Shown here: piece after piece, positions 7,415 through 26,236 of the stretch
Numbering within the stretch: the stretch's first letter is position 1
How the letters are laid out: each line of letters starts with the position of its first letter
DNA from: Chitinophaga pinensis
Lineage (GTDB): Bacteria > Bacteroidota > Bacteroidia > Chitinophagales > Chitinophagaceae
Length of the DNA: 64,000 bases
Assembly: GCA_945862385.1 (NCBI GenBank)
Contig: CAMAXV010000001.1
Location: 248,001-312,000 of the forward strand
Direction: 5' to 3'
Notes under the pieces: model-generated
Database searches by the model: none
Told to the model about the DNA's origin: nothing
What the model saw: only the letters and a program-made list of their open reading frames with translations
Made by a program: the position numbers and the translations under genes

Positions 7415-7984
7415 ATGAAAATTGGGCTTTTCTTTGGGTCTTTCAACCCTATACATGTTGGCCACCTCATAATTGGAAAATACATCTTGAACAATACCGA
7501 ACTGGATCAGGTATGGTATGTTGTTTCACCACAGAATCCATTTAAAAGCCAGTCAGGCTTACTCAACGAATACCACAGATTACATCTTGTAAATATTGCC
7601 ATTGAAGGAGAACCCGGTTTAAAAGTATGTAACATAGAATTCGGATTGCCAAAACCATCCTACACGATAGATACACTTACTTACCTTGAAGAAAGATATC
7701 CAGGAATAAACTTTGCAATTATTATGGGTGAAGACAGTTTTTCGAACCTTGACAAATGGAAAAGCGGAAACCTAATAAAAGAGCGTTATGAATTATATGT
7801 ATATAAGCGCAATGGTTCAGATGCTAATTCAAAAGAAAACAGCAGAACACATATAATTGATGCGCCTGTACTGAATATATCATCCTCTTATGTACGCGCG
7901 CAGATTAGAGCAGGAAAATCAATCCGGTATTTGGTAACAGATCCGGTTTACAATGAAATTATGCAAGCCGGATATTACCGCTAA
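7415..7984 (+). CDS. nadD: Nicotinate-nucleotide adenylyltransferase NadD
   Basis: Joins nicotinate mononucleotide and ATP to give deamido-NAD in NAD synthesis. The nucleotidyltransferase signature G-S-F-N-P-x-H-x-G-H is at residues 8-17, and the closing ISSSYVRAQIRAGKSIRYLV matches the family ISSTxIR motif. 189 residues is full length. Its last four bases overlap the end of the convergent chrA gene. Another NAD gene, nadA, lies at 22728-23663. Confidence 0.95.
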   Translation: MKIGLFFGSFNPIHVGHLIIGKYILNNTELDQVWYVVSPQNPFKSQSGLLNEYHRLHLVNIAIEGEPGLKVCNIEFGLPKPSYTIDTLTYLEERYPGINFAIIMGEDSFSNLDKWKSGNLIKERYELYVYKRNGSDANSKENSRTHIIDAPVLNISSSYVRAQIRAGKSIRYLVTDPVYNEIMQAGYYR

Positions 7985-9231
7985 AACAGTTTAATTAGTC
8001 CCAACAATAACACACCTAAAACAATAAAAGGAGGTGGTATGCGGGTGAAGAACAAAAGAAGGAGTGTCGAAGAAAAGACAAAAATATAAGGAATCACATT
8101 TTGCAAATTTCTATCCTTCATTAATATAAAAGAATCTTGAAAAAGATAAAGTGCACCAGCAAACATAATACCCACCACAGCAGCATTTACACCTGATAGG
8201 CAACGCCTGATTGATTCTATATTCTTTAGGTGTTCCCACAATGGGAAAAAGAAAATGCCCAATAAAAAACTGGGTAGAAAAATTGCGGTGGCGCCAATAA
8301 AACAACCAGCAATTTGATAAATAACTGAATGGCCAGACATAGAAATCCCACCAACATAAGCAGCAATAGAAAAAGCAGGTCCGGGGATGGCTCTTACAAC
8401 TCCTGTGGCATTTAAAAATGCTTGTCTGTCTATACTTATAACATCTTTATTAAACTGCTTTATATGTCCACTTTCGGGCCTGATTACATATTGGTTATAC
8501 ATAACTGGAATAAGTACATCTGCACCCCCAAAAACATAACTCCCAAACCTGAACATATTCTCGAAAAGATTATACGGTGTTCGATTTTCCCAATTGCTTT
8601 TTCGGGCCTTTTCAGATAGAAAGCCGGCACTTATAAAAAGGGCGGCGAATAAAAAAAGGGGTAAAAACCTGACACGCAAAAAGGAACGAACATAGGTTGG
8701 TGATTCTTTTTTATTAAAAAGGAAACCCATTGTTGCACCTATAGTTATTACAGCGGGAAATATCCAAGGTGATTGAAAAAAAACAAATACAAGAAGACAA
8801 CTCGTGAAAAATATGAGTCGTGTAAACGTAGTATTGATTAAACCAATTGTTTTAAAACTACCAAAACAAAGAAATGCAAGAGCCATAGGCTGAATGAAAG
8901 TAAGTAGGATAGGTACATGATCTGCATGGGATGTTGTCAGAAAAGAGAAAAGAGACATCAACGTTACGGCAGGTATCGTCCATATAAGGAGTGTGGCGAA
9001 ACCCAAAAAATAACCACCTCTCTTATAACCAAGGAGTGTTATTGTTTGTGTGGCTGTTGCACCCGGCAGCATCTGACAGAAAACATTTACATCAAGAATT
9101 TCTTCAGCTGTAAAAAACTTATTACGATCAGCCATGGATTTTAATAACAAACCAAGCTGACTTTGAGGACCCCCAAAAGCAGATATTGTGTGGAGGAAAA
9201 CCACCCGTAAAAAAGTCAGGTGATTTCTCAT
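7981..9231 (-). CDS. chrA: Chromate efflux transporter ChrA (CHR family)
   Basis: Polytopic inner-membrane protein of the chromate ion transporter family, with the two-CHR-domain (long chain) layout. The first half carries FGGPQSQLGLL and VNVFCQMLPGATATQ; the second half has GGADVLIPVMYNQY and ATGVVRAIPGPAFSIAAYVGG, both diagnostic of CHR domains. About ten hydrophobic segments are seen in 416 residues. Chromate export is the family function; resistance is not proven by sequence. It follows a 2OG oxygenase gene on the same strand by 3 bases. Confidence 0.9.
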   Translation of the reverse strand: MRNHLTFLRVVFLHTISAFGGPQSQLGLLLKSMADRNKFFTAEEILDVNVFCQMLPGATATQTITLLGYKRGGYFLGFATLLIWTIPAVTLMSLFSFLTTSHADHVPILLTFIQPMALAFLCFGSFKTIGLINTTFTRLIFFTSCLLVFVFFQSPWIFPAVITIGATMGFLFNKKESPTYVRSFLRVRFLPLFLFAALFISAGFLSEKARKSNWENRTPYNLFENMFRFGSYVFGGADVLIPVMYNQYVIRPESGHIKQFNKDVISIDRQAFLNATGVVRAIPGPAFSIAAYVGGISMSGHSVIYQIAGCFIGATAIFLPSFLLGIFFFPLWEHLKNIESIRRCLSGVNAAVVGIMFAGALYLFQDSFILMKDRNLQNVIPYIFVFSSTLLLLFFTRIPPPFIVLGVLLLGLIKLF

Positions 9232-9234
9232 GTC

Positions 9235-10176
9235 CTATTTCTTTAATCCTATTTCTATTAAACGCTCATCAAGGTATTGACCGGCTGTATAGTCATCATA
9301 TACTTTAGGTGAATCTTCTGTTATGCAAGAGGGTAAACAAGCCAATGACATGCTACTTTTGGGATGCAAAAAGAATGGTATAGAATATCGCGAAGTAGAC
9401 CAAAGTTCGCGTGGTGGGTTAACAACACGGTGTGTGGTACTTTTAAGTTTATTGTTAGTTAGTCTTTGCAACATATCACCAACATTTACTACAATTGCAC
9501 CGGGACCAGCTTTAACCGGAAGCCATTCATTGTCTTTAGATAGTATTTCCAGTCCATCAGCCGAAGCTCCAACAAGCAGGGTAATTAGGTTAATGTCTTC
9601 ATGTTGTTCAGCGCGGATACTAGAACTTGGCTCTTGTAATATTGGAGGATAATGAATTGCTCTTAAGATGCTGTTGCCCTCATGAATATGAACAGAAAAG
9701 AATGATTGATCAAGTAGTAAATATGTGGCAATAGCTTCTAATAAATGAGAACCAGCAATTTCGAAAGATCTGAATGCAGCGTCAAGGTTTGAATTAAATG
9801 TGTCAATATCGTGAACGAATACATTATCAGGATACTCAGATTTGTCTAATGAAGAAGAACTGGGCTGTCCGTATTGAAAAAATTCTTTTAAATCAGGAGT
9901 AACACTTCCCTTCGCGTGTTCTCTGCCAAAAGAAGTATAACCACGCTGACCAGCGAGATTTGCTATTTCATAAGATTTCTTGGAAGAGTCAGAAAGGGAA
10001 AAAAAAACTTCAACATCTTTGTAAACGTTGTCAATCAGAGTTTGAGAGATACCGTGATTAATGACTGAAACAAAACCAACATTTTCAAAAGCTGAACCGA
10101 GATCTTGTATAAATTGTTCTCTTATGGTATCATCACCTAGAAGATAATTTGAAAGATCAAGTTGGGGAATGTTCAT
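9235..10176 (-). CDS. 2-oxoglutarate/Fe(II)-dependent dioxygenase, isopenicillin N synthase-like
   Basis: Non-haem iron oxygenase of the IPNS/flavanone hydroxylase type. The DIOX_N-like N-terminus (IPQLDLSNY, FENVGFVSVINHGIS) is followed by the double-stranded beta helix with iron ligands His192 and Asp194 (EQHEDINLITLL) and His249 (TTHRVVNP), then the R-x-S motif (SRYSIPFF) that binds 2-oxoglutarate carboxylate. All key residues are present, so an active enzyme is expected. Substrate unknown. Probably co-transcribed with chrA, whose start is 3 bases downstream; the link between them is not obvious. Confidence 0.9.
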   Translation of the reverse strand: MNIPQLDLSNYLLGDDTIREQFIQDLGSAFENVGFVSVINHGISQTLIDNVYKDVEVFFSLSDSSKKSYEIANLAGQRGYTSFGREHAKGSVTPDLKEFFQYGQPSSSSLDKSEYPDNVFVHDIDTFNSNLDAAFRSFEIAGSHLLEAIATYLLLDQSFFSVHIHEGNSILRAIHYPPILQEPSSSIRAEQHEDINLITLLVGASADGLEILSKDNEWLPVKAGPGAIVVNVGDMLQRLTNNKLKSTTHRVVNPPRELWSTSRYSIPFFLHPKSSMSLACLPSCITEDSPKVYDDYTAGQYLDERLIEIGLKK

Positions 10177-10221
10177 GAAAAATATTTAGGTAAAAATAAT
10201 CAATAGAAATTAACAAAAATT

Positions 10222-11253
10222 ATGAAGAGTAAAACAATAGCTATAATTGCTTCAATAATATACTTACACTGTAGTTGTATCAATAAAAATATGCAATCAA
10301 TAACAAAAAGTGAAAATCAATGGATGAACATTGATTATGGGTATATGGTTAATTGGGCGGCTCATCCAAAAAAGAAAGATGAGTCTGATACACTAGCAGT
10401 TGGTGCAAAAATAAAAAGTTCAAAAAACGTAGATGTATTTTTTATACATCCAACAACGTTGACGGGAAAATTAATAGCCGGTCATGAAAATGCAAAAATA
10501 ACAGATGTAATTATAAATAAGAAAACAGATGAATCACCTATAAGGTTTCAGGCAAGTGTCTTCAATGAAGAATGCAACGTATACGCTCCGAGATACAGAC
10601 AAGCACATTTGAAAATGTACGATGAAAAAGATTCGACAAAGTTGTACGAATCTTTTGGGAAAGCCTATGCTGATATTAGAGATGCGTTTATATACTATCT
10701 GGCGAATAACAATCAGGGAAAACCATTTATTATAGCATCACATAGTCAGGGAACAACACACGCTAAAAGATTGATAAAAGAATTGGTTGACAATAAACCA
10801 ATTCAGGAAAAAATGATAATTGCATATTTGGTTGGAATGCCAGTATTAAAAAGAGAATTTGAAAATATACCGCTGTGTATGGACTCCATTCAAACAAATT
10901 GCTTTGTAAGCTGGAGAACATTTCATAAGAATTATCATGATGATTGGGCAAACAGATTAGATACAAATATTGCAGTTGTAAATCCGGTTACCTGGCTTAC
11001 TACAAGTGAGATAGCAGAAAAGGAAAAACATAAAGGAGCAGTATTGTATAATTTACAAAAAAGTTTTCCTGGAATACAAGAAACACAGGCAGAAGGAAGT
11101 GGAGTTTGGATTAGCAGACCACGATTTCCAGGGTCAATTCTATATAATACAAAAAACTACCATGTTGGAGATATCAATTTATTTTACATTGACATTAGAG
11201 AAAACATAAAAACAAGAATAAGTCAATATGAACTAAATCATGAAATTGAATGA
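10222..11253 (+). CDS. DUF3089-family alpha/beta-hydrolase-like protein, exported or lipoprotein
   Basis: Hydrophobic N-terminus ending in a Cys pair (LHCSC) suggests an exported protein, perhaps a lipoprotein, though the lipobox is weak. The body matches the DUF3089 pattern: VFFIHPTTLTG, then a nucleophile elbow S-H-S-Q-G (IIASHSQGTTHA), and FVSWRTFH. The fold and elbow imply a serine hydrolase; substrate unknown. Codon use is strongly A+T rich, with many ata, aaa and gaa codons, as in the next gene. It is divergent from the 2OG oxygenase over a 45-base gap. Confidence 0.8.
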   Translation: MKSKTIAIIASIIYLHCSCINKNMQSITKSENQWMNIDYGYMVNWAAHPKKKDESDTLAVGAKIKSSKNVDVFFIHPTTLTGKLIAGHENAKITDVIINKKTDESPIRFQASVFNEECNVYAPRYRQAHLKMYDEKDSTKLYESFGKAYADIRDAFIYYLANNNQGKPFIIASHSQGTTHAKRLIKELVDNKPIQEKMIIAYLVGMPVLKREFENIPLCMDSIQTNCFVSWRTFHKNYHDDWANRLDTNIAVVNPVTWLTTSEIAEKEKHKGAVLYNLQKSFPGIQETQAEGSGVWISRPRFPGSILYNTKNYHVGDINLFYIDIRENIKTRISQYELNHEIE

Positions 11254-11300
11254 TAGTATTCAGTAGAATGAAAATTGAACTTCTGTAGTTTTAGATAAAA

Positions 11301-12125
11301 ATGGATACCATTCTCGTTCCAGTAAATAACGGAGAAGCATCAAAAAATGCAGTAATATATGCAGCGGAAATAGCTAAGGATCTTGGAAAAAATATATTAC
11401 TAATTAATGCTTATCAGGTACCGGTTAGTTATACAGAAGTACCTCTTGTAACTATAAGCTTAGAACAAATAGAAGAAGCAAGTAAAGAATTGCTAATAAA
11501 ATTTAAAAGTGAAATACAAAAAATAACACCTACTGATTGTAAAATATATATTGAGAGTGTTTATGGCGAAATTGAAAAAGAGATAAAAAAAACAATAGAA
11601 AAAATAGATCCTTATGTGATTATAATTGGCACTGGTGGTAGAAGTGGATTGGGACGATTTTTTCTGGGAAGTACATCATTGAAAATTATCAATGAAACAA
11701 AAACTCCAGTTTTAATAATACCTCCAAATTTAAAGTATAAAAGATTTCTGAACATCGTAGTAACATCCGATTTTGAAGATGTAATCGAGAATACGTCAAC
11801 GAGAATAATTGCTGAATTAGTTCGAAAATATAAGTCGAAAGTGTCAGTATTACATGTAGATTACGAAAGGTATCATTTTACAGCTAGTACCCCAATGGAA
11901 ACAATGAATTTAGACAATATACTAACGGACTTAAACCCCACTTATCATTACATAGAAAATAAAGATACTATAGAAGGTATCATTACTTATGTAAAAGAAA
12001 ATGATGTTGATCTTCTGGTCGTTTACCCAAAGAGGCACAATTGGTTTGAACAAATCTTTGAAAAAAGTAAGACTAGAGAACTTATTCAAAATGCTATAAA
12101 ACCTGTACTATGTTTGAGAAATTAA
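11301..12125 (+). CDS. Universal stress protein with two Usp domains
   Basis: Tandem UspA-like protein. Domain 1 (about residues 1-142) keeps the ATP-binding G-x2-G-x9-G-S/T pattern ([17 protein letters not shown]). Domain 2 (about 148-274) is shorter and degenerate, with no clear nucleotide motif, so only the first half is likely to bind ATP. Tandem Usp proteins of this size are common in Bacteroidetes. Very A+T-rich coding sequence. The last four bases overlap the end of asnS on the opposite strand. Confidence 0.9.
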
Positions 12126-13558
12126 AACTCAGCTGATTTAGGTGTTCTGGGGAAAGGAATAACATCGCGGATATTTGTCATACCAGTAACAAATAATACC
12201 ATCCTTTCAAAACCTAATCCAAAACCAGCATGTGGTACAGTACCAAACTTTCGTGTATCTAAATACCACCATAATTCGTCCGGATTGATATGCATTTCTG
12301 TCATTCTCTTGGTGAGTAAATCAAGTCTTTCTTCACGCTGAGAACCGCCTACAATTTCCCCAATACCCGGAGCAAGTATATCCATAGCAGCAACCGTTTT
12401 CCCATCATCGTTTTGACGCATGTAAAAAGCCTTTATGTCCTTGGGATAATTAGTAACAATAACTGGTTTTTTGAAGTGCTTTTCAACAAGATAACGTTCG
12501 TGTTCACTTTGCATATCAATACCCCATTTTACATCATATTGGAATTTCTTCTTTTTATAAGCCGGTGACTGTAGAAGTATATCAATGGCCTCACTATAAG
12601 TAATACGTTCAAATTTATTGTCTGTTACAAATCTTAACTTTTGTAAAAGCGACAATTCACTTCTTTTATCTGTTGGCAATAGTTTTTCTTCTTCTAAGAG
12701 TCGTTGGTCTAGAAAAGCAAGATCTTCAGCATTATGATTGAGAACATAAGTAATCAGATACTGAATGAACTCCTCTGCGAGATTCATATTATCTTCAAGG
12801 TCATTGAATGCCATTTCTGGTTCAATCATCCAAAATTCAGCAAGGTGACGCGTTGTATTAGAATTTTCTGCTCTGAAAGTTGGTCCAAAAGTATAAATTT
12901 CGCCAAAGGCTGTAGCAGCTAATTCACCTTCCAATTGACCACTAACCGTAAGATTTGTTGGTCTTCCAAAAAAATCTTCAGAAAAATCTATATTACCATT
13001 TTCGTCCCGAGGGGGGTTGTCGAAGGGTAACGTTGATACGCGAAACATTTCGCCAGCTCCTTCTGCATCACTAGAAGTAATTATTGGAGTATGCAGATAT
13101 ATAAAACCCTTGTCATTAAAGAATTTATGAATTGCAAAAGCGAGTGAGTGTCTAATGCGGAAAACAGATCCAAAAGTGTTCGTACGAAATCTAAGGTGGG
13201 CAATTTCACGTAAGAACTCAAGACTATGTTTCTTAGGTTGTAAAGGATACTTTTCAGCATCACTGTCTCCTAAAACTTCAAGTGCTTCACAATTTAATTC
13301 AAGAGACTGACCTTTACCTAAACTAGGAACTAACTTTCCGGAGATCTTTAAAGCAGTACTTGTAACAATACGTCTTAAAATATCGTCGGGTTGGGAACCT
13401 AATACTACTACTATTTGCAGATTTGTATTGGTGGAACCGTCATTGACTGCAATAAACTGATTATTTCTAAAGGTTCTTACCCAACCCATTACCGTAACTG
13501 ATTGATTATCAGCACTAAAAGACAATAAATCCTTTATTTTAGTACGTTTGTTAAACAT
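12122..13558 (-). CDS. asnS: Asparagine-tRNA ligase
   Basis: Charges tRNA-Asn in the cytosol. An OB-fold anticodon-binding domain (residues 10-105, with [11 protein letters not shown]) precedes a class II catalytic core with motif 2 ([21 protein letters not shown]) and motif 3 ([15 protein letters not shown]). The ITYSEAID and [12 protein letters not shown] stretches are typical of AsnRS rather than AspRS. I start at ATG 13558; the frame runs to a TTG at 13579 but that codon lies in the promoter -7 element. 478 residues, complete. Confidence 0.96.
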
Positions 13559-13576
13559 GCAATAAAAATTAGAGTG

Positions 13577-13584
13577 CAAAGGTA
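13577..13584 (-). promoter_or_regulatory. Likely -7 element of the asnS promoter
   Basis: Minus-strand TACCTTTG fits TAnnTTTG and lies 18 bases before the ATG at 13558, making the more distant TTG start very unlikely. Confidence 0.45.
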
Positions 13585-13771
13585 CAAAAATGTAATAGCC
13601 TTAAATAATCAACAAGTAGTGGCTGATTAAATAATTTTTTGAAATGAATAAAATTTGTAATATTGCATTGAAGAAAAAGACATTTTTCGTTGTCTTGCAT
13701 TAATACAATTTCTTCTTACTTCGAATTTACCACTCAAAAGCCAAAAGGGCCTGAATAATCAAAATTTAAGT

Positions 13772-15367
13772 ATGTACGATATTTTGCAGTTAAATGATAT
13801 GCTGTTACCAGAACTTGTGGAAATAGCTGAATCTTTGAAAATTGCTGGATTGAAAAAACTGGATAAGCAAAATCTAATCTATAAAATACTGGATAAGCAA
13901 GCAATATTAAATAGTGCAGTAAAAGAAACTGGCAAAACTAATTTACCTGCTAAAAAGAAGAGAATAGTTAAAACAACAACTGGAATATCAACGGAAGAAG
14001 CAATAGTTGAGAATGAAGGAAATGAAGAAACAGTTGAAGAAATAAAACCAAAAATTGAGAAAAAAAATGGTAAACGTGGCAGACCAGCAATAAATCCACA
14101 AAAAGAAGTAATTGAAGCTGAACAGCAAAAGGAAGAAGAGAAGGTTGTAGAAACAAGTGAAGAAATCCAATCAGCTGAAAATATAATTGTTTCCGAAGAA
14201 CCCCCGGCAAAACAATTATTTATAAAGAAGGAACCTGCTTTTAATGTAGAATTTGATGGTGCCATTCAGGGTGAGGGCGTTCTAGAAATGATGCCAGATG
14301 GCTATGGGTTTTTAAGGAGTAGTGATTATAATTATCTATCATCTCCAGATGATGTATATGTATCACCTTCTCAAATAAAATTGTTTGGTATTAAAACTGG
14401 AGATACTGTTACAGGGTATGTTCGACCACCAAAAGAAGGTGAAAAATATTTTGCATTACTTAAAGTAGATAGTGTAAATGGACGGCTTCCCGATGAAGTT
14501 AGAGACAGGGTACCTTTCGACTATTTGACTCCTCTATTTCCTTATGAAAAATTAAATCTGTATACTAAACAGGATAATTATTCAACGAGGATGATGGATC
14601 TTTTTACGCCACTTGGTAAGGGACAAAGAGGCTTGATCGTTGCACAACCTAAGGTAGGTAAAACTATGCTTCTAAAGGAAGTAGCGAATGCGATAGCAAA
14701 AAATCATCCTGAATGTTACCTGATGGTAGTCTTAATTGATGAAAGACCCGAAGAGGTAACCGACATGGAGCGGAGTGTAAAGGCTGAAGTATTGGCTTCT
14801 ACTTTTGATGAACCTGCCGAAAAACATGTAAAAGTATCAACAATGGCTTTACAAAAAGCAAAAAGACTTGTTGAGTGCGGTCATGATGTTGTTATTTTAC
14901 TTGATTCAATAACCAGGTTAGCAAGGGCTCACAATACTGTAGCACCATCATCAGGTAAAGTATTATCAGGAGGTGTTGAAGCGAATGCGATGCAAAAGCC
15001 AAAACAATTTTTTGGTGCAGCAAGAAAAATTGAGAATGGTGGATCTTTAACAATTCTTGCAACAGCTTTGATTGACACAGGAAGTAAAATGGATGAAGTA
15101 ATCTTTGAAGAATTCAAGGGTACAGGTAATATGGAATTAGCACTAGATAGAAGACTTGCTAATAAGAGAATGTTCCCAGCAATTGACTTAACGGCTTCTT
15201 CAACAAGAAGAGAAGACCTCTTACTTGATAAAGATGTACTGCAAAAAATGTGGATACTGAGGAATCATATAGCCGATATGAATAGTGAAGAAGCTATGAA
15301 TTTGTTGCTGAAACAAATGAAGGGTACACGAGATAATATAGAATTTCTTACCAGTATGAACAAATAG
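13772..15367 (+). CDS. rho: Transcription termination factor Rho with long charged insert
   Basis: RNA-dependent ATPase hexamer that ends transcription. A short N-terminal SAP-like helical part (residues 1-45) is followed by a low-complexity Glu/Lys-rich stretch (about 50-150), then the cold-shock RNA-binding domain ([15 protein letters not shown]) and the ATPase core with P-loop QPKVGKT and [14 protein letters not shown]. The insert makes the protein 531 residues, against about 420 in E. coli. At residues 101-105 the insert has KRGRP, the core of an AT-hook. Such inserts are known in Bacteroidetes Rho. mnmH follows 10 bases later. Confidence 0.96.
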
Positions 15368-15377
15368 TAATTCACTC

Positions 15378-16526
15378 ATGGCTGTAACCAAAATAGCGGT
15401 TGAGGAATTCATTAAAATATCGAAATTATATCCTGTAATTGATGTAAGAAGTGAGAGTGAATTTAAACATGCACATGTTCCTGGAGCATATAATCTATCA
15501 CTCTTTAATGATGAAGAAAGAAAAATTGTTGGTACAATCTACAAACAACAATCCAGAGAGCAGGCAATAAAAAAAGGACTCGAATATTTTGGTCCCAAGA
15601 TGAAAGAAATGATCCTTTTTGCTGAAAGGATTAACAGGACACTTGAAAGTGGTAATAAAACTTTTGTAGTACATTGTTGGCGGGGTGGTATGAGAAGTGC
15701 AGCAGTAGCATGGTTACTGGATATGTATGGATTTAAAGTTTACACATTAGTTGGCGGATATAAAGCATTCCGGAACTGGGTACTGGTTCAATTTACAAAA
15801 CCAAAAAAGATAAATATAGTTGGCGGGTATACTGGCTCTGGTAAAACAATAATTCTGCAAGAACTGGAAAGAAAGGGTGAAGCAATAATAGATCTTGAAG
15901 GAATTGCAGGACATAGGGGATCTGCATTTGGCAGAATAGGCCTACCAGAACAAACAAGTGTAGAAATGTTTGAAAATAAACTTGCACTTGAAATTTCAAA
16001 AATTGAAATTACATATCCAGATAAATCAATATGGATTGAAGATGAAAGTCAGAGAATAGGTGCTGTAAGTATACCACATGCACTATGGGAAAAAATGAGA
16101 AAAAGTATGGTATACTTCATAGATATTCCTTTCGAAAAAAGGCTGTCATATATTGTTGAAACCTATGGTAAACTAAATCAAAATGAACTGGCTGAAGCAA
16201 CTTTAAGAATTCAAAAAAAATTAGGTGGTCTCGAAACTAAAACTGCAATTGATTATTTAAAGAATAATGATTTGGAAAGTTGTTTTGAAATCCTCTTAAA
16301 ATATTATGATAAACTGTATTTAAAATCTCTAAAATCAAGGGAAATTACGAAAAATGAAGGGATTGAAAAAAGTATAGAAACAGAATTAGGTGATAGAGAT
16401 AATCAGATAAAAGAGGATCAAGAAAAATCATATTCAGATAATTACAAAATGGTAATATATTCAGATAGAGTAGACCCGAATACAAATTCACAAAAACTAT
16501 TAACTGCATTTTATGGAAGAAATTAA
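15378..16526 (+). CDS. mnmH: tRNA 2-selenouridine synthase MnmH (SelU/YbbB)
   Basis: Replaces sulfur by selenium on 2-thiouridine at wobble position 34, via a geranylated intermediate, using selenophosphate. The N-terminal rhodanese domain has its active Cys at residue 100 (VVHCWRGGMRS). A P-loop GGYTGSGKT follows at 149-157, with the family stretch DLEGIAGHRGSAFG. 382 residues is normal, though the last 50 are polar and variable. The selD start lies inside its 3' end (14-base overlap), so the selenium donor is made from the same transcript. Confidence 0.94.
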   Translation: MAVTKIAVEEFIKISKLYPVIDVRSESEFKHAHVPGAYNLSLFNDEERKIVGTIYKQQSREQAIKKGLEYFGPKMKEMILFAERINRTLESGNKTFVVHCWRGGMRSAAVAWLLDMYGFKVYTLVGGYKAFRNWVLVQFTKPKKINIVGGYTGSGKTIILQELERKGEAIIDLEGIAGHRGSAFGRIGLPEQTSVEMFENKLALEISKIEITYPDKSIWIEDESQRIGAVSIPHALWEKMRKSMVYFIDIPFEKRLSYIVETYGKLNQNELAEATLRIQKKLGGLETKTAIDYLKNNDLESCFEILLKYYDKLYLKSLKSREITKNEGIEKSIETELGDRDNQIKEDQEKSYSDNYKMVIYSDRVDPNTNSQKLLTAFYGRN

Positions 16527-17565
16527 ACTCACACAATATTCTCACGGTGCAGGATGTGGATGTAAGATATCTCCAAAAATACTAGACCAAATACTTCACA
16601 GTAATTTCACATTACCAGATAATGAAAAACTACTTGTTGGAAATGATGCTAAAGATGATGCAGCTGTATATGAAATAGATAATGGTAAAGCTTTAATATC
16701 TACGACGGATTTCTTTATGCCCATAGTAGATGATCCTTATAACTTTGGCCGTATCGCTTCCGCAAATGCCATCTCAGATGTTTACGCAATGGGGGGAGAT
16801 CCTATAATGGCGATTGCTATATTAGGATGGCCAATTAATACAATTTCACCTGCTGTTGCTAAAAGAGTTATTGAAGGAAGTAAAAGTATTTGTCTTGAGG
16901 CAGGTATACCTTTGGCAGGTGGACATAGTATAGATTCTCCTGAGCCGATTTTTGGTTTAGCTGTAAATGGTATAGTAGATGTAAAAAATCTTAAAAAAAA
17001 TAATACTGCTCAAGAAGGTGATCTTTTATTTCTTACAAAAAAAATTGGCGTTGGTATATTAACAACAGCTGAAAAAAAGGGATTATTACTACCCAATGAA
17101 CTCAATCTTGCTGCTGAACAAATGATGAAGTTGAATAAAATCGGTTCATTGTTGGGTAAACAGTCGTTTGTAAATGCAATGACTGATGTCACCGGTTTTG
17201 GAGTTCTAGGACATCTGGTTGAGATGGCAGAAGGAAGTGGGCTTAGTGCCGAAATATATTTTCTTAAAATAAGACATATAACAGATAATCTGATTAACTA
17301 CATCAGAAAAGGGTCCATTCCTGGAGGAACAATAAGAAACTGGGATAGCTATGGTCACAAAATTTTACTTCAGGAAACTGAAGAAATCGAAATCAAAAAA
17401 ACAGTATTAGCAGATCCACAAACGAGTGGTGGATTACTGATTTCAGTTAAAGCAGAAGCAGAAAAAGAAATACAGACAATCTTTAATGAAAATGATTTAG
17501 CAGAGTTTATAATTCCTATAGGACGGATTATCTCTAAAAAGGAAAATGTTATAGTTGTTAATTAA
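16513..17565 (+). CDS. selD: Selenide, water dikinase SelD (Cys form)
   Basis: Makes selenophosphate from selenide and ATP. Strikingly close to E. coli SelD along its whole length. The catalytic pair is Cys15 and Lys18 in HGAGCGCKISP, so this is the cysteine, not the selenocysteine, form. The AIRS-type ATP-binding elements VGNDAKDDAAVY, ISTTDFFMPIVDDP and AGGHSIDSPEPIFGLAV are intact. It is translationally coupled to mnmH, which points to use of selenium in tRNA. Convergent with the pterin dehydratase gene, overlapping it by 8 bases. Confidence 0.97.
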   Translation: MEEIKLTQYSHGAGCGCKISPKILDQILHSNFTLPDNEKLLVGNDAKDDAAVYEIDNGKALISTTDFFMPIVDDPYNFGRIASANAISDVYAMGGDPIMAIAILGWPINTISPAVAKRVIEGSKSICLEAGIPLAGGHSIDSPEPIFGLAVNGIVDVKNLKKNNTAQEGDLLFLTKKIGVGILTTAEKKGLLLPNELNLAAEQMMKLNKIGSLLGKQSFVNAMTDVTGFGVLGHLVEMAEGSGLSAEIYFLKIRHITDNLINYIRKGSIPGGTIRNWDSYGHKILLQETEEIEIKKTVLADPQTSGGLLISVKAEAEKEIQTIFNENDLAEFIIPIGRIISKKENVIVVN

Positions 17566-17803
17566 ATAATTTATCGATTTCAACGGATAGTAATTCATCT
17601 TTTTCAGTGATGACATTTCCGGAATCATGTGTAGATAACCAAATCTCTACTGTATTCCATGTATTGCTCCAAGTTGGATGATGATCCAATTTCTCGGATA
17701 TTAAAGCTACTCTTGAAATAAAAGCAAAGGCGGTAGAAAAATCAGAAAAGGTGAATTTTCTGTATAACTTATTGTCAGTTATAGTCCAATTAGAAGAAAT
17801 CAT
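17558..17803 (-). CDS. 4a-hydroxytetrahydrobiopterin dehydratase (PCD/PhhB)
   Basis: Recycles the pterin cofactor by dehydrating the 4a-carbinolamine. The signature EKLDHHPTWSNTWNTVEIWL keeps the two active-site His (DHHP), and a third conserved His lies in LSTHDSG. 81 residues is slightly short but complete. Its start overlaps the end of the IPExxxVDY gene by four bases, so the two are likely co-translated. In bacteria without aromatic amino acid hydroxylases the role of this enzyme is often unclear; no hydroxylase is visible here. Confidence 0.92.
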   Translation of the reverse strand: MISSNWTITDNKLYRKFTFSDFSTAFAFISRVALISEKLDHHPTWSNTWNTVEIWLSTHDSGNVITEKDELLSVEIDKLFN

Positions 17804-18231
17804 CGCTGTAAATTATTTTTTGATTTAATTCGTGACTGATCAATGTCAACTACCATTTGTACTCCGGGTATACTTTTTAATAAGGATTGAATTTTCTTGT
17901 AGTTATGTATGTTACCATCAACACCTTTAAATAACCAAATATAATCGAGATGTTGTAATTCAGGTAGAAGAAATTCACCATCATTTTTGTTGGTAAATAA
18001 CTGGTAATGATCCATTGATACCAAATCTCGATATTCGTAAACGGTAAAAGAATAAATTCTTTGATTTTTAACTAGATTAATCTGCATATCTTCAGAAGTC
18101 CCAAAATAAATATTGAGGTGATGCTGGATGTGCCAACAGAATAAATAATTTTTAAGAGTAGAAACAATACCAAGAAGATAAGAACCTTCGAAAAAATCAG
18201 GAGAGGTTGAGTCTTCAAGACGGTATTTCAT
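17800..18231 (-). CDS. IPExxxVDY-family protein (Bacteroidetes-specific)
   Basis: Cytosolic protein of unknown function. The name-giving motif is present as LPELQHLDY near residues 89-97, and the C-terminus VVDIDQSRIKSKNNL matches the family tail. No signal peptide or membrane segment. Overlaps the M28 peptidase gene by one base upstream and the pterin dehydratase gene by four bases downstream, suggesting one transcript for all three. Function is unassigned in the family. Confidence 0.78.
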   Translation of the reverse strand: MKYRLEDSTSPDFFEGSYLLGIVSTLKNYLFCWHIQHHLNIYFGTSEDMQINLVKNQRIYSFTVYEYRDLVSMDHYQLFTNKNDGEFLLPELQHLDYIWLFKGVDGNIHNYKKIQSLLKSIPGVQMVVDIDQSRIKSKNNLQR

Positions 18232-19877
18232 TAAAAAACTATTTCGAATTTGATTTCCTGATCTTTTCTCAAAACAATAACAGTTGCTTGTTCTCCTTTC
18301 TTGAATTTAGATAATGCCTGCATATATGATTCAACAGATGATGTTTTTATATCACCTAGTTGTTTTACAATATCGCCTGCTAATATACCTGCTTTTTTGG
18401 CTGGTCTATTATCAGAAACACCATCAACACGAACACCATTTCCACTGTATGAATAATCAGGCATGATTCCCATTGAAACACTGAAGCGTGTAGATGTGGA
18501 AGTTTGTTGCTCTCTGGTTTTTAAAAAATTAATTCTAGAACCAGATCTATCATTCCGTATAAGAAGCTCAATAAAACGAATAATCTTAAACATTCCTACA
18601 TAGTTTATCTTATCTGCATCATCAGATGGTTTATGATAATCAGTATGCAAGCCAGTAAAAAAGAAAAGTACAGGAATATCTTTTCTGTAAAACGATGTAT
18701 GGTCACTTGGTCCTGATCCACTTGAGTCTGTTTTTATTGAAAAATCAATTTTTTCAATGGAAGAAATCATTTTATTCCAAGAAGTACTTGTACCATAACC
18801 ACCAACTGTAATGGTTTTAGTACTATCGTTCATTCTTCCAACCATATCCATATTGATCATGTAGTTAACTGATTTAAGATCAATTGTAGGATTTTCAACA
18901 AAATATTTTGAACCATTCAAGCCTAATTCTTCAGCTGAAAAAGCAATAAACAAAAAATTATATTGTTTGGATTTACTGTTCTTTAAGATGAAGGCAAGTT
19001 CAATCAAACTTGCTGTTCCACTTGCATTATCGTCTGCGCCGTTATGAATAGTAGGTACACCACCCCTAATCATAGAATTTCCGTCTTCTCCATAACCTAA
19101 ATGATCAAAATGTGCACCTATTACTACTGTTAAAGGAGCTTTGTTGTCAATAAAACCAATAACATTTCTCGCCTTTCTGTATCGTGGTGAAACAGAAATA
19201 TTGAGATCTACAATATACTCTGATTCAGCATCAGGAAAAAAAATTTGTTTGGCCTTAACAGTTAGGTAGAATGCAGGAATTATAGAATTTACAGATCTGT
19301 CTTTTGGATCAAATTGAATATTATCATTCAAAGAAGATGTGTTATAAAAAATGACAAAGGGAACATTGTTATCTTTAGCTGATTTAAGTTTTGATGTAAT
19401 TACATGCTGTATATCAAAGTGAGGATTATCCTTATTATCGTTTAGATCATCTCCGAGATCTATTAACCAAGGCTGACCACTTTCATGAATTGCAGGTGTA
19501 ATATTAGATTTGAAATTGGCTTTTGGACTGTTAGAAAGTGGAAAAATGTCAGTACCAACTGTAGCTTTAATACCGTTAACAGTAAAAGATGAAATACCAT
19601 CAATAAATTTACCCTCATATATATCAAAAGGTTGATAAAAAGTAGAGTTATCAGTAGTTCCTTTGGGTATAAGACCGATTTCCTTGAATTTAGCTGAAAT
19701 GAAATTTGCAGCAAGAATCTCACCTGAATCACCTGCTCGTCTTCCTTTCAAATCGTCTGAAGCAAGATATGAAACCTGGGATTTCAGGTAACTGACAACC
19801 TTTTTGTCCTTATTAGATAGCTTTTGAGCGAATAGGTTAGATGAAATAAATAGAAGAAAAAGAAAAAACCTATACAT
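18231..19877 (-). CDS. Exported M28-family metallopeptidase with C-terminal PDZ domain
   Basis: Zinc aminopeptidase-type enzyme. Signal peptide (residues 1-17, ending FAQ), then a PA-like insert region (about 100-215) and the M28 core with metal ligands in GAHFDHLG, NGADDNASG, FSAEELGLNG and GPSDHTSFY. A PDZ domain (about residues 465-545, GIMPDYSY to the end) follows, as in other Bacteroidetes M28 proteins. It probably acts on peptides in the periplasm. First gene of a three-gene overlapping set on the minus strand; feoB diverges from it. Confidence 0.92.
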   Translation of the reverse strand: MYRFFLFLLFISSNLFAQKLSNKDKKVVSYLKSQVSYLASDDLKGRRAGDSGEILAANFISAKFKEIGLIPKGTTDNSTFYQPFDIYEGKFIDGISSFTVNGIKATVGTDIFPLSNSPKANFKSNITPAIHESGQPWLIDLGDDLNDNKDNPHFDIQHVITSKLKSAKDNNVPFVIFYNTSSLNDNIQFDPKDRSVNSIIPAFYLTVKAKQIFFPDAESEYIVDLNISVSPRYRKARNVIGFIDNKAPLTVVIGAHFDHLGYGEDGNSMIRGGVPTIHNGADDNASGTASLIELAFILKNSKSKQYNFLFIAFSAEELGLNGSKYFVENPTIDLKSVNYMINMDMVGRMNDSTKTITVGGYGTSTSWNKMISSIEKIDFSIKTDSSGSGPSDHTSFYRKDIPVLFFFTGLHTDYHKPSDDADKINYVGMFKIIRFIELLIRNDRSGSRINFLKTREQQTSTSTRFSVSMGIMPDYSYSGNGVRVDGVSDNRPAKKAGILAGDIVKQLGDIKTSSVESYMQALSKFKKGEQATVIVLRKDQEIKFEIVF

Positions 19878-19977
19878 ATTGAAGATTTATACAAAAATAC
19901 ATAGATGTTTTAATATACTTAAAGAGTGGTTATGAACGTTTTTACTTTATTCGTAAAGAAAGAAAAACTTTACAAAG

Positions 19978-19985
19978 TATATTTG
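19978..19985 (+). promoter_or_regulatory. Likely -7 element of the feoB promoter
   Basis: TATATTTG matches TAnnTTTG and lies only 10 bases before the feoB ATG, implying a very short leader. No clear -33 element or Fur-type operator was seen. Confidence 0.4.
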
Positions 19986-19995
19986 TGTATATCAG

Positions 19996-22113
19996 ATGGC
20001 AAAAAACCCACATATAGCGCTGTTAGGAAACCCAAATAGCGGCAAAAGCTCTCTTTTTAATCTATTAACCGGGCTAAATCAAAAAGTTGGAAACTTTCCG
20101 GGGGTAACAGTAGAAAGAAAAATAGGAAAACTTAAGATTCAGCAAAAAACTGAATGTAACGTTATTGATTTACCAGGAACATACAGTTTATATCCAAGAA
20201 GAACTGATGAGTGGGTTGCTTATAAACAGATTATGTCTCCTGAAAATCAGGAAGAAAAAGTGGACATAGCAATAGTAGTTGCAGATGCAAGTAATCTGAG
20301 AAGAAATCTGTTGTATGTTTCTCAGGTAATTGATCTTAAAATTCCAGTTATAGTTGTATTGACTATGATGGATATTGCAAAGAAAAGAGGCGTCAGAATT
20401 GACATAGATACCTTATCCAGGGAAATGCAGGTTCCAATCATAGCTGTTAATGCAAGAACGGGCAAAGGAGTGGATCAACTTAAATCAAGTATAGGAATAC
20501 TTCTACAAACAGATACTGTAGGAAATGATTTTTATAATATTCATGAATTAGCGGAAGATGCAATAGCTGAGGTAAAAAAACTAGATAATACACTCAGTAA
20601 TTATGGAGCTATTCATTATTTAATAAACCATGAGTCTTTTCAATTAAATGAGGAAAAACAGGCTGAAATAGAAAAAATTGAACTTAAGTACCAGTTTAAT
20701 CATACAAAAGTTCAAGCAGAAGATATTCAAAAGAGATATCAGAAGATTAGACTTGTAATGCAGAAATCTGTAGAAGAAAACAGTCCGGAGAAGCAGAAAA
20801 AGTTCTCTGAGAAACTGGATGATTTTTTTCTTCATAATACATGGGGTTATCTGATAATGGGCGTTGTTCTTTTTCTTTTATTCCAATCTGTCTTCTGGAT
20901 TGCTGAATATCCTATGAATGCTATTGAAGAAGGAGTTGGATATGTAGGGGGAAAATTAGGGGAAATTCTCCCTGAAGGATGGGTAACAGATTTATTGATC
21001 AATGGAGTATTAGCTGGATTTGGAGGAATAATTGTTTTTGTTCCCCAAATAATGATCTTATTTGGTTTAATAACCTTGTTAGAAGATACAGGTTATATGG
21101 CCAGGATAAGTTTTTTATCAGACAGGATAATGAGAAAAGTTGGTCTGAATGGAAAGAGTGTAATGCCCATGATAGGTGGTTTTGCATGTGCTGTACCAGC
21201 AATTATGAATGCAAGAAATATTGAAAACAGCAAAGAGCGCCTACTCACAATAATGGTAACACCATTTATGAGTTGTAGTGCACGTTTGCCTGTATTTACA
21301 ATACTCGCATCACTTGTGGTACCAAACGAATATATTTTCGGTGTTTTAAGCTTACAAGGTTTGGTATTGATGGGCCTATATGTTCTGGGAGTAGCAGTAG
21401 CTATGGGCGTTGCATACATACTTAACATATTTATTAAAATAAAAGAGAAAAGTTTTTTTATCCTTGAATTACCCATATACAGACAACCCCGTTGGAAAAA
21501 TATATTGATAACAATGATTGAAAAAGCTAAAGTGTTTGTATTTGATGCTGGAAAAATTATCATGGTTATTTCTCTTGTATTATGGGCTTTAAGTACTTAC
21601 GGACCTGCGGATAGGAGAAAAATAATAGAAGATACATACACAGAACAGGTAAGTAAAAACCCAGCTAATACAGAAGAATACGAACTTTTAAAATCACAGG
21701 CGTTACTTGAAAATTCCTATGCAGGTATACTTGGCAGGGCAATAGAGCCAGTAATAACTCCATTGGGATATGACTGGAAAATAGGTATCGCATTAGTCAC
21801 ATCATTTGCAGCAAGGGAAGTTTTTGTAGGAACAATGGCAACAATATACAGTGTAGGAGGTGATGCAGATGAAAACAGTGAAACTTTGCGCAATAAAATG
21901 GCTTCTGCAAAAAGACCAGATGGAACTCCAGTTTACACAAAAGCTACGGGTTATTCGTTACTCATTTTCTATTTACTAGCCATGCAATGTATGAGCACAT
22001 TGGCAATAGTAAAGCGGGAAACGGGTAGCTGGAAATGGCCTGTTATACAATTGATTTACATGACAGCAATAGCTTACTTCTTAAGTTTTGTGGTATATCA
22101 GTTATTAAGTTAG
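19996..22113 (+). CDS. feoB: Ferrous iron transporter FeoB
   Basis: GTP-gated ferrous iron permease of the inner membrane. G-protein domain at the N-terminus: G1 GNPNSGKS (residues 11-18), the NFPGVTVE switch, and G3 DLPGTYSL; the G4 position reads LTMMD. A helical spacer (about 165-270) leads to the membrane part with GFACAVPAIMNARN and PFMSCSARLPVFTILA, the two Gate motifs with conserved Cys. 705 residues is normal. feoA is 12.6 kb away rather than adjacent. Its end overlaps the HAD phosphatase gene on the other strand by 9 bases. Confidence 0.97.
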   Translation: MAKNPHIALLGNPNSGKSSLFNLLTGLNQKVGNFPGVTVERKIGKLKIQQKTECNVIDLPGTYSLYPRRTDEWVAYKQIMSPENQEEKVDIAIVVADASNLRRNLLYVSQVIDLKIPVIVVLTMMDIAKKRGVRIDIDTLSREMQVPIIAVNARTGKGVDQLKSSIGILLQTDTVGNDFYNIHELAEDAIAEVKKLDNTLSNYGAIHYLINHESFQLNEEKQAEIEKIELKYQFNHTKVQAEDIQKRYQKIRLVMQKSVEENSPEKQKKFSEKLDDFFLHNTWGYLIMGVVLFLLFQSVFWIAEYPMNAIEEGVGYVGGKLGEILPEGWVTDLLINGVLAGFGGIIVFVPQIMILFGLITLLEDTGYMARISFLSDRIMRKVGLNGKSVMPMIGGFACAVPAIMNARNIENSKERLLTIMVTPFMSCSARLPVFTILASLVVPNEYIFGVLSLQGLVLMGLYVLGVAVAMGVAYILNIFIKIKEKSFFILELPIYRQPRWKNILITMIEKAKVFVFDAGKIIMVISLVLWALSTYGPADRRKIIEDTYTEQVSKNPANTEEYELLKSQALLENSYAGILGRAIEPVITPLGYDWKIGIALVTSFAAREVFVGTMATIYSVGGDADENSETLRNKMASAKRPDGTPVYTKATGYSLLIFYLLAMQCMSTLAIVKRETGSWKWPVIQLIYMTAIAYFLSFVVYQLLS

Positions 22114-22719
22114 AAGACCACGAGAAATTAAATTGTTTTCCAGTTCAGATGCAGAAGTAAAATGAATGGATTTTAATCCAAAAATTTCGGCTGCAGTAAT
22201 ATTTCGAAGATTGTCATCAATAAAAATGGCATTCGATTTATCAATAGAAAATTTATTGATTAAAAGTTCATAGAAGTCATAAAAAGGTTTTCTTGTTTTT
22301 TCTTCACCAGAAACAAGTCTGCCATCAAACCAATGCAAAAATTCATACAAATCCAGTGCTTTGGGAAATGTTTCAGCACTCCAATTGGTTAAGGCATAAA
22401 ATTTAAACTTACCTGTTTTTCGTAAATTATTGAAAATAGACACAGTTTCTGAGATTGGTCCTCCCAACATTTCTTCCCAACGATCATAATAGGCCTCTAT
22501 TAGGCTCTTGAAGGCAGGATACTCATTAATTAATATGTTGTTAGCTTCGGATATCAAACGACCGCCATCCTGCTCTTCATTCCATTCAGCGGTACACACA
22601 TTATCGAAAAACCATTTTCTTTCAACAGGATCTGAGATAAGTTTTTTATACAGGTAATCCGGGTTCCAATCAATCAAAACACCACCAAGATCAAAAATTA
22701 TTGTATTTATCTGCGTCAT
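22105..22719 (-). CDS. HAD-superfamily (class IA, YihX-like) hydrolase
   Basis: Probable sugar- or nucleotide-phosphate phosphatase. Motif I is FDLGGVLIDW: the nucleophile Asp is present, and the second acidic residue of the usual DxD is replaced by Gly as in other YihX-type members. Motif II is the Thr-Asn in YALTNWS, motif III a Lys around EKTRKP, and motif IV IFIDDNLRN. Cap region between residues 18 and 95 is helical. Likely acts in the cytosol on a small phosphorylated metabolite. nadA lies 8 bases upstream on the same strand. Confidence 0.88.
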   Translation of the reverse strand: MTQINTIIFDLGGVLIDWNPDYLYKKLISDPVERKWFFDNVCTAEWNEEQDGGRLISEANNILINEYPAFKSLIEAYYDRWEEMLGGPISETVSIFNNLRKTGKFKFYALTNWSAETFPKALDLYEFLHWFDGRLVSGEEKTRKPFYDFYELLINKFSIDKSNAIFIDDNLRNITAAEIFGLKSIHFTSASELENNLISRGLLT

Positions 22720-22727
22720 AAAAGGAT

Positions 22728-23663
22728 TTAAACGAAAGCATTAGCCCTGCTGATATCTAACATTTTTTTTATGGGCACAATGGCTTTTGTAAGTATATCA
22801 ACAGACAATATCAGCTCTGGACTTTCTAATAATAATGCTTGATAGATTTTTTCCAGGGTATTTTTCTTCATATGTGGACAGTCATTACAAGCACAACTGT
22901 TATTAGGAGGTGCAGGAATAAAAATCTTATGAGGTGATGCAAGCATCATTTGATGTAATATTCCTGTTTCAGTAACAACAATAAATTTTTCTGCGGAATC
23001 CTGTTGCGTGTATTTGAGCAATTGTGTTGTAGAACCAATAAAATCTGCATATTCGAGTAATTCTGCCTCGCATTCCGGATGCGCTATAATTTTGGCTTCA
23101 GGAAACTCAACTTTTAAATTGAGTAGTTTTTCTATGCTGAAAATTTCGTGAACCATACATGCACCATTCCATAGTACCATATTCCTTCCTGTTTGCTTGT
23201 TGATATAAGCTCCAAGATTGCGATCGGGCGCAAAGATTAAAGGTTGATCTTCAGGAAAACTATTCACAATAGACATGGCATTACTGCTCGTGCAAATTAC
23301 ATCACTCAGGGCTTTAATTTCAGCAGAACAATTGATGTAGGAAATAACTTTATGATCAGGCAGGCTTTCAGTAAATTGTTTAAAAAGGTCAGGGGGACAA
23401 CTATCACTCAGCGAACAACCTGCATCAAGGTCTGGTATAAGTACTTTTTTATGCGGATTTAGAAGCTTTGCCGTTTCTGCCATAAAATGCACACCAGCAA
23501 AAACAATGATGTCAGCATCAACATTTTCAGCAACCTGAGCCAGTTGAAGGCTGTCACCCAAAAAGTCTGCAATGTCCTGAATGTCTGCTGTCTGATAGTA
23601 ATGTGCCAGGATAATGGCATTTTTTTTCTGCTTTAAATCTAAAATTTTTTCTCTCAGATTCAT
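22728..23663 (-). CDS. nadA: Quinolinate synthase NadA
   Basis: Iron-sulfur enzyme that condenses iminoaspartate with dihydroxyacetone phosphate to quinolinate, the first committed part of de novo NAD synthesis. Expected features are all seen: LAHYYQ near the start, DAGCSLSDSC, NCSAEIKALSD, HPECE, GSTTQLLKY, and a C-terminal CACNDCPHMKKN, giving the three Cys ligands of the 4Fe-4S cluster. 311 residues is full length. Its start codon forms the left border of the candidate replication origin, and a DnaA-box-like sequence touches it. Confidence 0.96.
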   Translation of the reverse strand: MNLREKILDLKQKKNAIILAHYYQTADIQDIADFLGDSLQLAQVAENVDADIIVFAGVHFMAETAKLLNPHKKVLIPDLDAGCSLSDSCPPDLFKQFTESLPDHKVISYINCSAEIKALSDVICTSSNAMSIVNSFPEDQPLIFAPDRNLGAYINKQTGRNMVLWNGACMVHEIFSIEKLLNLKVEFPEAKIIAHPECEAELLEYADFIGSTTQLLKYTQQDSAEKFIVVTETGILHQMMLASPHKIFIPAPPNNSCACNDCPHMKKNTLEKIYQALLLESPELILSVDILTKAIVPIKKMLDISRANAFV

Positions 23664-23773
23664 GTGAACAACTCCTGTATTAATTATATATCTATTCTTT
23701 ATTTATAAAATACCTATTACTATTACGGCTGTGGAAATGTGAACAACTTAAAAATAATCCGCTTTATTAAGAG

Positions 23774-23802
23774 CTATCCACAAATATCCACAATAATTCA
23801 CA
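23774..23802 (+). repeat. Three DnaA-box-like 9-mers in 10-bp phase
   Basis: CTATCCACA, ATATCCACA and TAATTCACA follow one another with their starts at 23774, 23784 and 23794. Same orientation and one helical turn apart, as expected for a DnaA filament nucleation array. Confidence 0.65.
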
Positions 23803-24053
23803 AACTATGTGATTTAATCAACGTCCTGTAAACAGGAAAACAGGGTAATCTAATTAACAATCCAAAAAATCTTTACTTAAACTATCAACATTTAAAATAA
23901 GCCGGAAATCCTGTGGAAATCTTATGAGCAAAATGTGATTAAAAGGATAAATTACAACCAACCCACAAAAAGACAGTAACAAGGTATGCGAAATACACAA
24001 TCACGGAGACTCAAAAAGGGCAGAAATTAACAGGAATTCGGTTTTATCCACAA

Positions 24054-24084
24054 TTTGTTAATAACCATTTTTACCCTATTTTTG
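24054..24084 (+). promoter_or_regulatory. Bacteroidetes-type promoter of the ppiD-like gene
   Basis: TTTG at 24054-24057 and TATTTTTG at 24077-24084, separated by 19 bases, match the -33/-7 consensus TTTG - N19 - TAnnTTTG. The perfect DnaA box at 24044-24052 lies right beside the -33 element, so DnaA binding could affect transcription. Confidence 0.6.
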
Positions 24085-24112
24085 CCACCCACTATATTAA
24101 TATAAGAAGGAT

Positions 24113-26236
24113 ATGTCAATTATTCAACAAATCAGGGACAAAGCAGCAGTTTTACTGACCACGATGATCGCAATAAGCCTTATCGGTTTCCTCGTTCAGG
24201 ATGCCTTTATTGGAAAAAGCGGAAATATGTTTGACGGACAAGCAACTTCTGCAGGAACAATCAATGGTAAAAAGGTAGATATCATTGAATTCAACAATAA
24301 GGTTAACCTGGTTGAGCAAAATTACAGGTCTCAGGGAATGCAGACCAATGAAATGATGACACAAAGCATCATTGAAAATGTATGGAACGGATACATTCAG
24401 GAAGAAATCATCCAATCAGAAGCTGCGAAACTTGGACTTACCGTAACGCCAAAGGAAATGGGAGCGGTTTTGTTTTCTGAAGAAGCACCACAGGAGTTCA
24501 GACAACTCTTTACAGACCCTAAAACTGGTGGTTATGACATCAATGCTGCAAAAAACTGGTTCAACAACCTCAAAAAAAGTGCAAAGGCTGAAGATGTTAC
24601 TAATATTACTGCGCAGTTGATTTATCCGATTGAAATAAACCTCCTTACCCAAAAATATACATCGCTGTTCACTCAGGGTTCATATGTTCCAAAATGGATG
24701 CTTGAGAAGATGAATGCAGACAATGCCTCTTTTGCAACAGTAAGCTATGTTGGTGTACCCTATACAACTGTGGCAGACAGTACCATTAAGGTTACTGATT
24801 CAGAAATAAATGAATATGTTAAGGCACACAAGGATGAATTTAAGCAAGAGCATATAAAAAGTATAGCTTATGTGTCATTCGACGCCAACCCAACTGTTGC
24901 GGATTCACAAGCTGTTGTAAACCAATTGGTTAATCTTAAATCTGCTTTTCAGGAAGCCTCAGATGCCAAGGCCTTTGTAACAAGGAATAACACACAGCTG
25001 CCCTATTTTGATGGCTTTGTACTCAGTTCTAAAATGCAGATGTCTGCAAAAGATGAAATCGTTGCAATGCCTGTAGGTCAGGTTTTTGGTCCATATTTAG
25101 ATGGTGGTGCATTTGTACTGGCCAAAAAACTAGATAGAAAAACTTTACCAGATTCTGTCAAGTGCAGACATATCCTTGTAGGCATTACAGATCCGCAAAC
25201 AGGTCAGCTGCGCAGAACAGACAGTGCTGCCAAGAAAACAATTGACAGCATTTACACGGTTTTGAAAGAAGGGGGTGATTTTGGTACCCTTGCCTTAGCT
25301 TACAGCGACGATCAGGGTAGCAAGTCTAACGGTGGTGAATACAATTTCTCTTCACTTGATATGAATCTTGATCCAGAATTTGCAAATTTCATCTTCAACA
25401 AACCAACAGGCTCAAGAGAGGTTGTAAAAACATCCTTTGGGTATCACATTATTGAAGTGTTGAATCAACGTAATTTTGAAGAAGCTTATAAGGTTGCCTA
25501 CCTTTCTAAATCTATTGTTCCAAGTGAAACAACAGATATTACAGCTTCTACAGCAGCAACACAATTTGCGGCACAGGCAAAAGATATGAAAACATTTGAT
25601 GAAGCTGCTTCCAAAATGAAGCTGAACAGAAATACCGCTGATAATATCAGAGAAATGGATTATTCAGCAGGAAATCTTCAATCTCGTTCACTTGTTAAAT
25701 GGATATTCGAGAATAAGCCAGGTACTGTTTCAGAACCAATAGATCTCAAAGATCAGTATGTAGTGGCCATTGTAACCAATGAAATAAACGAAGGTGTTCA
25801 ACCTGCTACTGTAGCGCGCGTATTGGTAGAACCAACCCTCAGAAACAAAAAGAAAGCAGAACAGCTTGCTGCAAAAGCAGGATCTGAGAAAAACCTCGAC
25901 AAACTGGCTTCCCTTTTTGGTGGAATTTCGGGTAAAGTTGACACACTCAGGTTCTCTGATCCGTTTGTTCAAAATTTAGGTACAGAAACTAAGGTTATTG
26001 GTGCAGCGTTTAATAAAAAGAACTTGTCTAATACATCAGGTGCTATTGACGGACAAAACGGCGTATATTTTATCCGTGTTGATCAGGTTGGCGCACTTCC
26101 TTCAGCTGCTGTAGACCTGAATGGTCAGAAGAAAGCAATGGAGGGTCAAATAAAACAATACGCTGGTTACAGCACCATGGAATCTCTTCGTAAATCAACT
26201 AAAATAGTTGACAAAAGAAGAGAAGCCGGATACTAG
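24113..26236 (+). CDS. PpiD/SurA-like peptidyl-prolyl isomerase, membrane-anchored
   Basis: Envelope folding factor. One N-terminal membrane anchor (about residues 12-30) is followed by a SurA_N-like chaperone region, and a parvulin (PPIC) domain from about residue 347 (VKCRHILVGI) to 450 (SFGYHIIEVLNQ). A second, degenerate parvulin-like region may follow around 555-680. 707 residues resembles PpiD-type proteins of Bacteroidetes. The periplasmic part likely assists outer-membrane protein folding. Single gene with its own promoter and terminator, reading away from the candidate origin. Confidence 0.9.
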   Translation: MSIIQQIRDKAAVLLTTMIAISLIGFLVQDAFIGKSGNMFDGQATSAGTINGKKVDIIEFNNKVNLVEQNYRSQGMQTNEMMTQSIIENVWNGYIQEEIIQSEAAKLGLTVTPKEMGAVLFSEEAPQEFRQLFTDPKTGGYDINAAKNWFNNLKKSAKAEDVTNITAQLIYPIEINLLTQKYTSLFTQGSYVPKWMLEKMNADNASFATVSYVGVPYTTVADSTIKVTDSEINEYVKAHKDEFKQEHIKSIAYVSFDANPTVADSQAVVNQLVNLKSAFQEASDAKAFVTRNNTQLPYFDGFVLSSKMQMSAKDEIVAMPVGQVFGPYLDGGAFVLAKKLDRKTLPDSVKCRHILVGITDPQTGQLRRTDSAAKKTIDSIYTVLKEGGDFGTLALAYSDDQGSKSNGGEYNFSSLDMNLDPEFANFIFNKPTGSREVVKTSFGYHIIEVLNQRNFEEAYKVAYLSKSIVPSETTDITASTAATQFAAQAKDMKTFDEAASKMKLNRNTADNIREMDYSAGNLQSRSLVKWIFENKPGTVSEPIDLKDQYVVAIVTNEINEGVQPATVARVLVEPTLRNKKKAEQLAAKAGSEKNLDKLASLFGGISGKVDTLRFSDPFVQNLGTETKVIGAAFNKKNLSNTSGAIDGQNGVYFIRVDQVGALPSAAVDLNGQKKAMEGQIKQYAGYSTMESLRKSTKIVDKRREAGY

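Follow-up and report, generated by a model that had tools for sequence, protein, structure and literature searches.

The 449-bp intergenic region between nadA and ppiD (23664-24112, 70% A/T) is very probably the chromosomal replication origin (oriC) of this bacterium, a call that we base on its sequence elements, their conservation in relatives, the uniqueness of its core within the genome and the GC skew of complete relatives. The region lies in a window (the whole stretch of 64,000 nucleotides that was analyzed, C1:248001-312000) on C1, a 359-kb contig of a 3.07-Mb draft genome in 80 contigs, and judged by NadA, the closest named relatives belong to Chitinophagaceae. No gene-free gap in the window is larger when ORFs of at least 80 aa are counted, and the region is flanked on the left by nadA (quinolinate synthase, 22728-23663, minus strand) and on the right by ppiD (PpiD/SurA-like peptidyl-prolyl isomerase, 24113-26236, plus strand), which diverge and read outward from it. 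The distance to dnaN is 4.3 kb, and that to three perfect parS sites is 17-18 kb. This setting agrees with the preliminary description, and its proposal of an origin placed by nadA rather than by dnaA is supported by the skew of relatives and by DnaA-box conservation; dnaA is not adjacent to the gap. Searches of the window for Rfam families and tRNAs gave no matches.

The core of the region is a putative basal unwinding system (BUS) on the minus strand at 23714-23746, consisting of two tandem DnaA boxes, a GC spacer and DnaA-trios; the preliminary description missed this conserved core. Read on the minus strand from 23746 to 23714, the core is TTGTTCACATTTCCACA-GCCG-TAATAGTAATAG, and it points into the 35-bp run of 91% A/T that comes next. 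The trio-proximal box (ATTTCCACA, 23730-23738, minus strand) and the second tandem box (TTGTTCACA, 23738-23746, minus strand, 8 bp from the first) carry two mismatches each, and homologues keep TGTGnAT in the former and GnGGA/AnA in the latter. A 4-bp GC spacer (CGGC, 23726-23729) separates the boxes from the trios (23714-23725, minus strand), whose direct reading is 5'-TAATAGTAATAG-3' (3'-GAT AAT GAT AAT-5') and which would form the expected ssDNA-binding and unwinding track. Directly beyond the trios, on the nadA side, is the predicted A/T-rich unwinding region (23679-23713), already suggested as an unwinding element in the preliminary description; only 26 35-mers in the window are as A/T-rich.

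The published rule for recognizing a BUS allows at most two mismatches in one box and at most four in the second, a spacer of 0-16 bp, and at least three NAN trios (PMC8287927). The window has boxes with two and two mismatches, a 4-bp spacer and four trios; the BUS assignment itself is one of resemblance, by rule and consensus, which we count as a point against the oriC reading. Across 31 homologues, variation in the trio columns has a 3-nt periodicity, two letters of each trio being almost fixed while the third toggles; variation at every third base is what a degenerate trio track predicts. The organism's own DnaA protein carries DHTTV, which we count in favor of the oriC reading.

Conservation of the box cluster in related genomes had been proposed as a check on the origin, and the cluster is kept in all 31 relatives with the ppiD/nadA gap, with 137 DnaA boxes over these homologous gaps; shuffles give 9, and the reversed motif gives 19. 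Aligned among relatives with this arrangement, the gap is mostly variable, with one short nadA-side block that is nearly invariant, and the BUS is present in 31 of 31 gaps, always in the same orientation. Its best score in the window is 27 out of 33, whereas no other 700-bp piece of the contig scores above 22. A 33-nt profile of the BUS block (R1), run on 299 genomes of the family, matches 278 of them (93%), mostly with one match each, and nadA adjoins all of the 30 best R1 loci. The sole R1 match in the 3.07-Mb genome itself is at C1:271714-271745 (23714-23745 of the window), and a simple pattern of the block also occurs once, at C1:271715. Six nadA loci that lack a recognized ppiD gap also have the BUS; they belong to Chitinophagaceae or close relatives (L024, L027, L034, L045, L065 and L088).

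Counted over the whole gap, the DnaA boxes are as follows: one is perfect, two have one mismatch (23774 and 23784), and eight, including that at 23794, have two. The count of about eight one-mismatch boxes in the preliminary description therefore falls to two. Boxes with at most one mismatch number three, versus 0.15 expected, and none of 100 dinucleotide shuffles reaches three. The gap is the densest such cluster on the 359-kb contig, but not in the genome (C27:6682-6904 has more), and the window's boxes are fewer and weaker than those of most relatives, which we count against the oriC reading. The boxes starting at 23774, 23784 and 23794 do share a strand and follow one another in 10-bp steps, as had been noted. 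Two of them correspond to a conserved tandem pair (ATATCCACA and TAATTCACA, 10 bp apart, 23784-23802, plus strand), which lies ∼38 bp past the BUS on the opposite strand; the extra box at 23774 (CTATCCACA, 23774-23782, plus strand) is in phase with the pair, but falls outside it and is not conserved. A 10-bp-spaced pair occurs 39-41 bp past the BUS on the opposite strand in most of the 31 relatives, and when spacings of 8-15 bp were scanned in these genomes, 10 bp gave the fewest mismatches.

The perfect box (TTATCCACA, 24044-24052, plus strand), correctly placed in the preliminary description, occupies a conserved position that reads TTTTCCACA or TTATCCACA, then TTTGTT. It touches a probable ppiD promoter, predicted at 24054-24084 on the plus strand, in which TTTG (24054-24057), which we take to be the -33 element of a Bacteroidetes promoter, is followed by a 19-bp gap and TATTTTTG (24077-24084). 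The latter fits TAnnTTTG, the Bacteroidetes promoter element (PMC10309648), and the promoter-like region before ppiD includes a CTATTTTTGCC block that is conserved among relatives. The position of the conserved box next to the TTTG...TATTTTTGCC block (24054-24084) makes DnaA control of ppiD possible.

The contact between this box and the promoter-like ppiD element, together with the usual position of the BUS element ∼100 bp upstream of nadA, would fit a nadA or ppiD promoter region that responds to DnaA or NAD and is no origin at all. We regard this explanation of the boxes and the conserved element as very improbable, since the element stays when either gene is absent or distant, and thus serves neither. 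In one genome of the same genus (G026), no nadA adjoins the element, which lies between ppiD and a HAD-hydrolase gene with the other synteny intact, while in another relative (G142) 28 kb separates ppiD from the element, which still adjoins nadA. In a sister family of the order, a BUS-like match is present in 44 of 120 genomes, and 25 of the 30 best matches (L283-L312) adjoin cox15/ctaA, a context unlike that of a nadA or ppiD promoter. Also at odds with a promoter are the nadA loci of most other families, in which no BUS element was found, and the coincidence of the element with the skew switch in G208 and G142.

The cumulative GC skew of the organism's own contig falls over 254 kb and then rises, with one sign switch, inside the window; this single fall and rise places the origin in or near the window. 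The minimum is at 5845, within 100 bp of parS and 18 kb from the gap. The three perfect parS sites (5761-5776, 5959-5974 and 6627-6642), which are the only ones in the genome, lie by mnmG, and a changepoint fit corrected for gene strand also prefers 4.7-8.6 kb, with a log-likelihood lower by 7.2 at 23.2 kb; its bootstrap 95% range (genes resampled) is 2.8-62.8 kb, which includes the gap. Both the minimum and the fit would favor placing the origin in the mnmG-parS gap (5683-5974), at a distance of 18 kb, with the nadA-ppiD boxes as an accessory DnaA site. The mnmG-parS gap has neither a DnaA-box cluster, the contig's only dense one being in the nadA-ppiD gap, nor an R1 match, and G208 and G142 have their skew minimum at the BUS or within 0.5 kb of it, with parS or parS-like sites 9-10 kb off. 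ParB sites normally lie near oriC and not at it, which also counts against an origin at parS, and we consider that alternative improbable.

The expectation in the preliminary description that the skew minimum should mark the origin holds in three single-contig relatives, where the minimum is at or near the element; on the organism's own contig the minimum is at parS, but the changepoint interval is broad and takes in the gap. These relatives' minima come from fully read stretches of 120-400 kb, with coarse samples elsewhere. In G208 the minimum (1,040,381) is inside the element (1,040,376-406), an offset of 5 bp, and in G142 the minimum (640,660) and the element (640,196) are 464 bp apart. In Chitinophaga sp. 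E66 (CP079103.1), the element is ∼3 kb distant from a local minimum at 5,614,431, and parS (5,620,950-5,621,938) is 7 kb distant from that minimum; skew samples are positive from ∼5.86 Mb through position 1 to 2.8 Mb, and negative at 3.15-5.36 Mb. The skew of G019 is noisier, with a local minimum 33 kb from the BUS, and we count it against the origin call. In relatives with both features on one contig, parS and the gap are 2.5-19 kb apart.

From parS to the BUS, GC skew is positive both here and in G007, which is the wrong sign for a left arm. Here (7000-24000) the GC content of this segment is 33-38%, versus 43% in the surroundings, and in G007 (C4:1-20000) it is 37-41%, versus 53-60%. A recent private inversion, considered as a cause of the displaced minimum, is not supported, since G298, G007 and G019 share the gene order seen here from parS to nadA. 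In our judgement, the displacement reflects local compositional noise in an A/T-rich stretch.

Two other places in the genome were weighed as origins. The cluster at C27:6682-6904 has four perfect boxes and one further box in 225 bp, with more perfect boxes than anywhere else in the genome, and one box lies upstream of dnaA itself (C8:29.9k). An origin at either place is extremely improbable: neither has an R1 or BUS match, the skew switch is on C1, DNA comparable to the C27 cluster is absent from 60 relatives except for short pieces, and dnaA of CP079103.1 is ∼0.78 Mb from the skew minimum. The C27 boxes (L018) are arranged as two inverted pairs between MBOAT and epimerase genes, in what is likely a surface-polysaccharide region, and could be a DnaA-titrating or regulatory site.

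The BUS was worked out in Bacillus subtilis, where it comprises DnaA-box#6/#7 and DnaA-trios, and has been predicted in most bacterial origins (PMC6669920, PMC8287927). The nadA-ppiD region resembles the B. subtilis system in its paired tandem boxes, its short GC spacer, its three or more trios of the 3'-GAT-5' type and its A/T-rich region. It differs in that its boxes carry two mismatches each, its neighbors are nadA and ppiD instead of dnaA and dnaN, and a second, opposite-facing 10-bp box pair lies ∼40 bp away. From the B. subtilis work we infer that DnaA binds the gap, that the helicase is loaded there and that the gap acts as an origin, as well as the order in which unwinding proceeds. 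DnaA would bind the two tandem boxes (23730-23746) and then load onto the adjacent trios (23714-23725) as a filament on one strand, which would open the A/T-rich run (23679-23713), where the helicase would be loaded. The opposite-facing pair (23784/23794) and the 24044 box would hold further DnaA, and the latter may also couple ppiD transcription to DnaA.

Compared with an oriC next to dnaA-dnaN, the genes that usually indicate origins, the region shares the DnaA-box cluster, the A/T-rich run, a nearby parS and, here, dnaN within 4.3 kb; unlike such an origin, it is separate from dnaA, which is on contig C8 here and, in Chitinophaga sp. E66, ∼0.78 Mb distant from the origin, and its distance from dnaN varies among relatives. 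The class of evidence, consisting of a skew extreme, DnaA boxes and a trio search, is that used for origins predicted in DoriC and Ori-Finder (PMC6323995, PMC10225481). No description of a Chitinophagaceae origin by nadA was found in the literature searched, which covered few subscription journals; the origin is of a known kind, at a location that is apparently undescribed in this family. It gives a large family of soil and environmental bacteria a well-supported origin position that is independent of dnaA, and which could serve as an anchor for chromosome start coordinates and for growth-rate estimates from metagenome coverage. The gap fragment also suggests itself as a basis for replicating plasmids in hosts for which few genetic tools exist.

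The persistence of the element in different surroundings lends itself to a broader, tentative interpretation, to which we give somewhat less than even credence: the BUS core may be a self-standing origin module with turnover of its neighbors, which are nadA and ppiD in Chitinophagaceae and cox15 in the sister family, and the opposite 10-bp pair could set up a second helicase. If so, the origin would have moved to a new position within one order, and the sequence of the unwinding element would have been preserved. Going by sequence resemblance, the BUS-like element adjoining cox15/ctaA is a candidate for the origin position in the sister family (f19). The genomes with a lost or moved neighbor, together with the cox15 context, would allow a comparative study of what holds origins in place. 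In other families of the order (L114-L117), weaker, diverged BUS-like matches with the same orientation lie 110-156 bp from nadA, and the link with nadA may be older than Chitinophagaceae.
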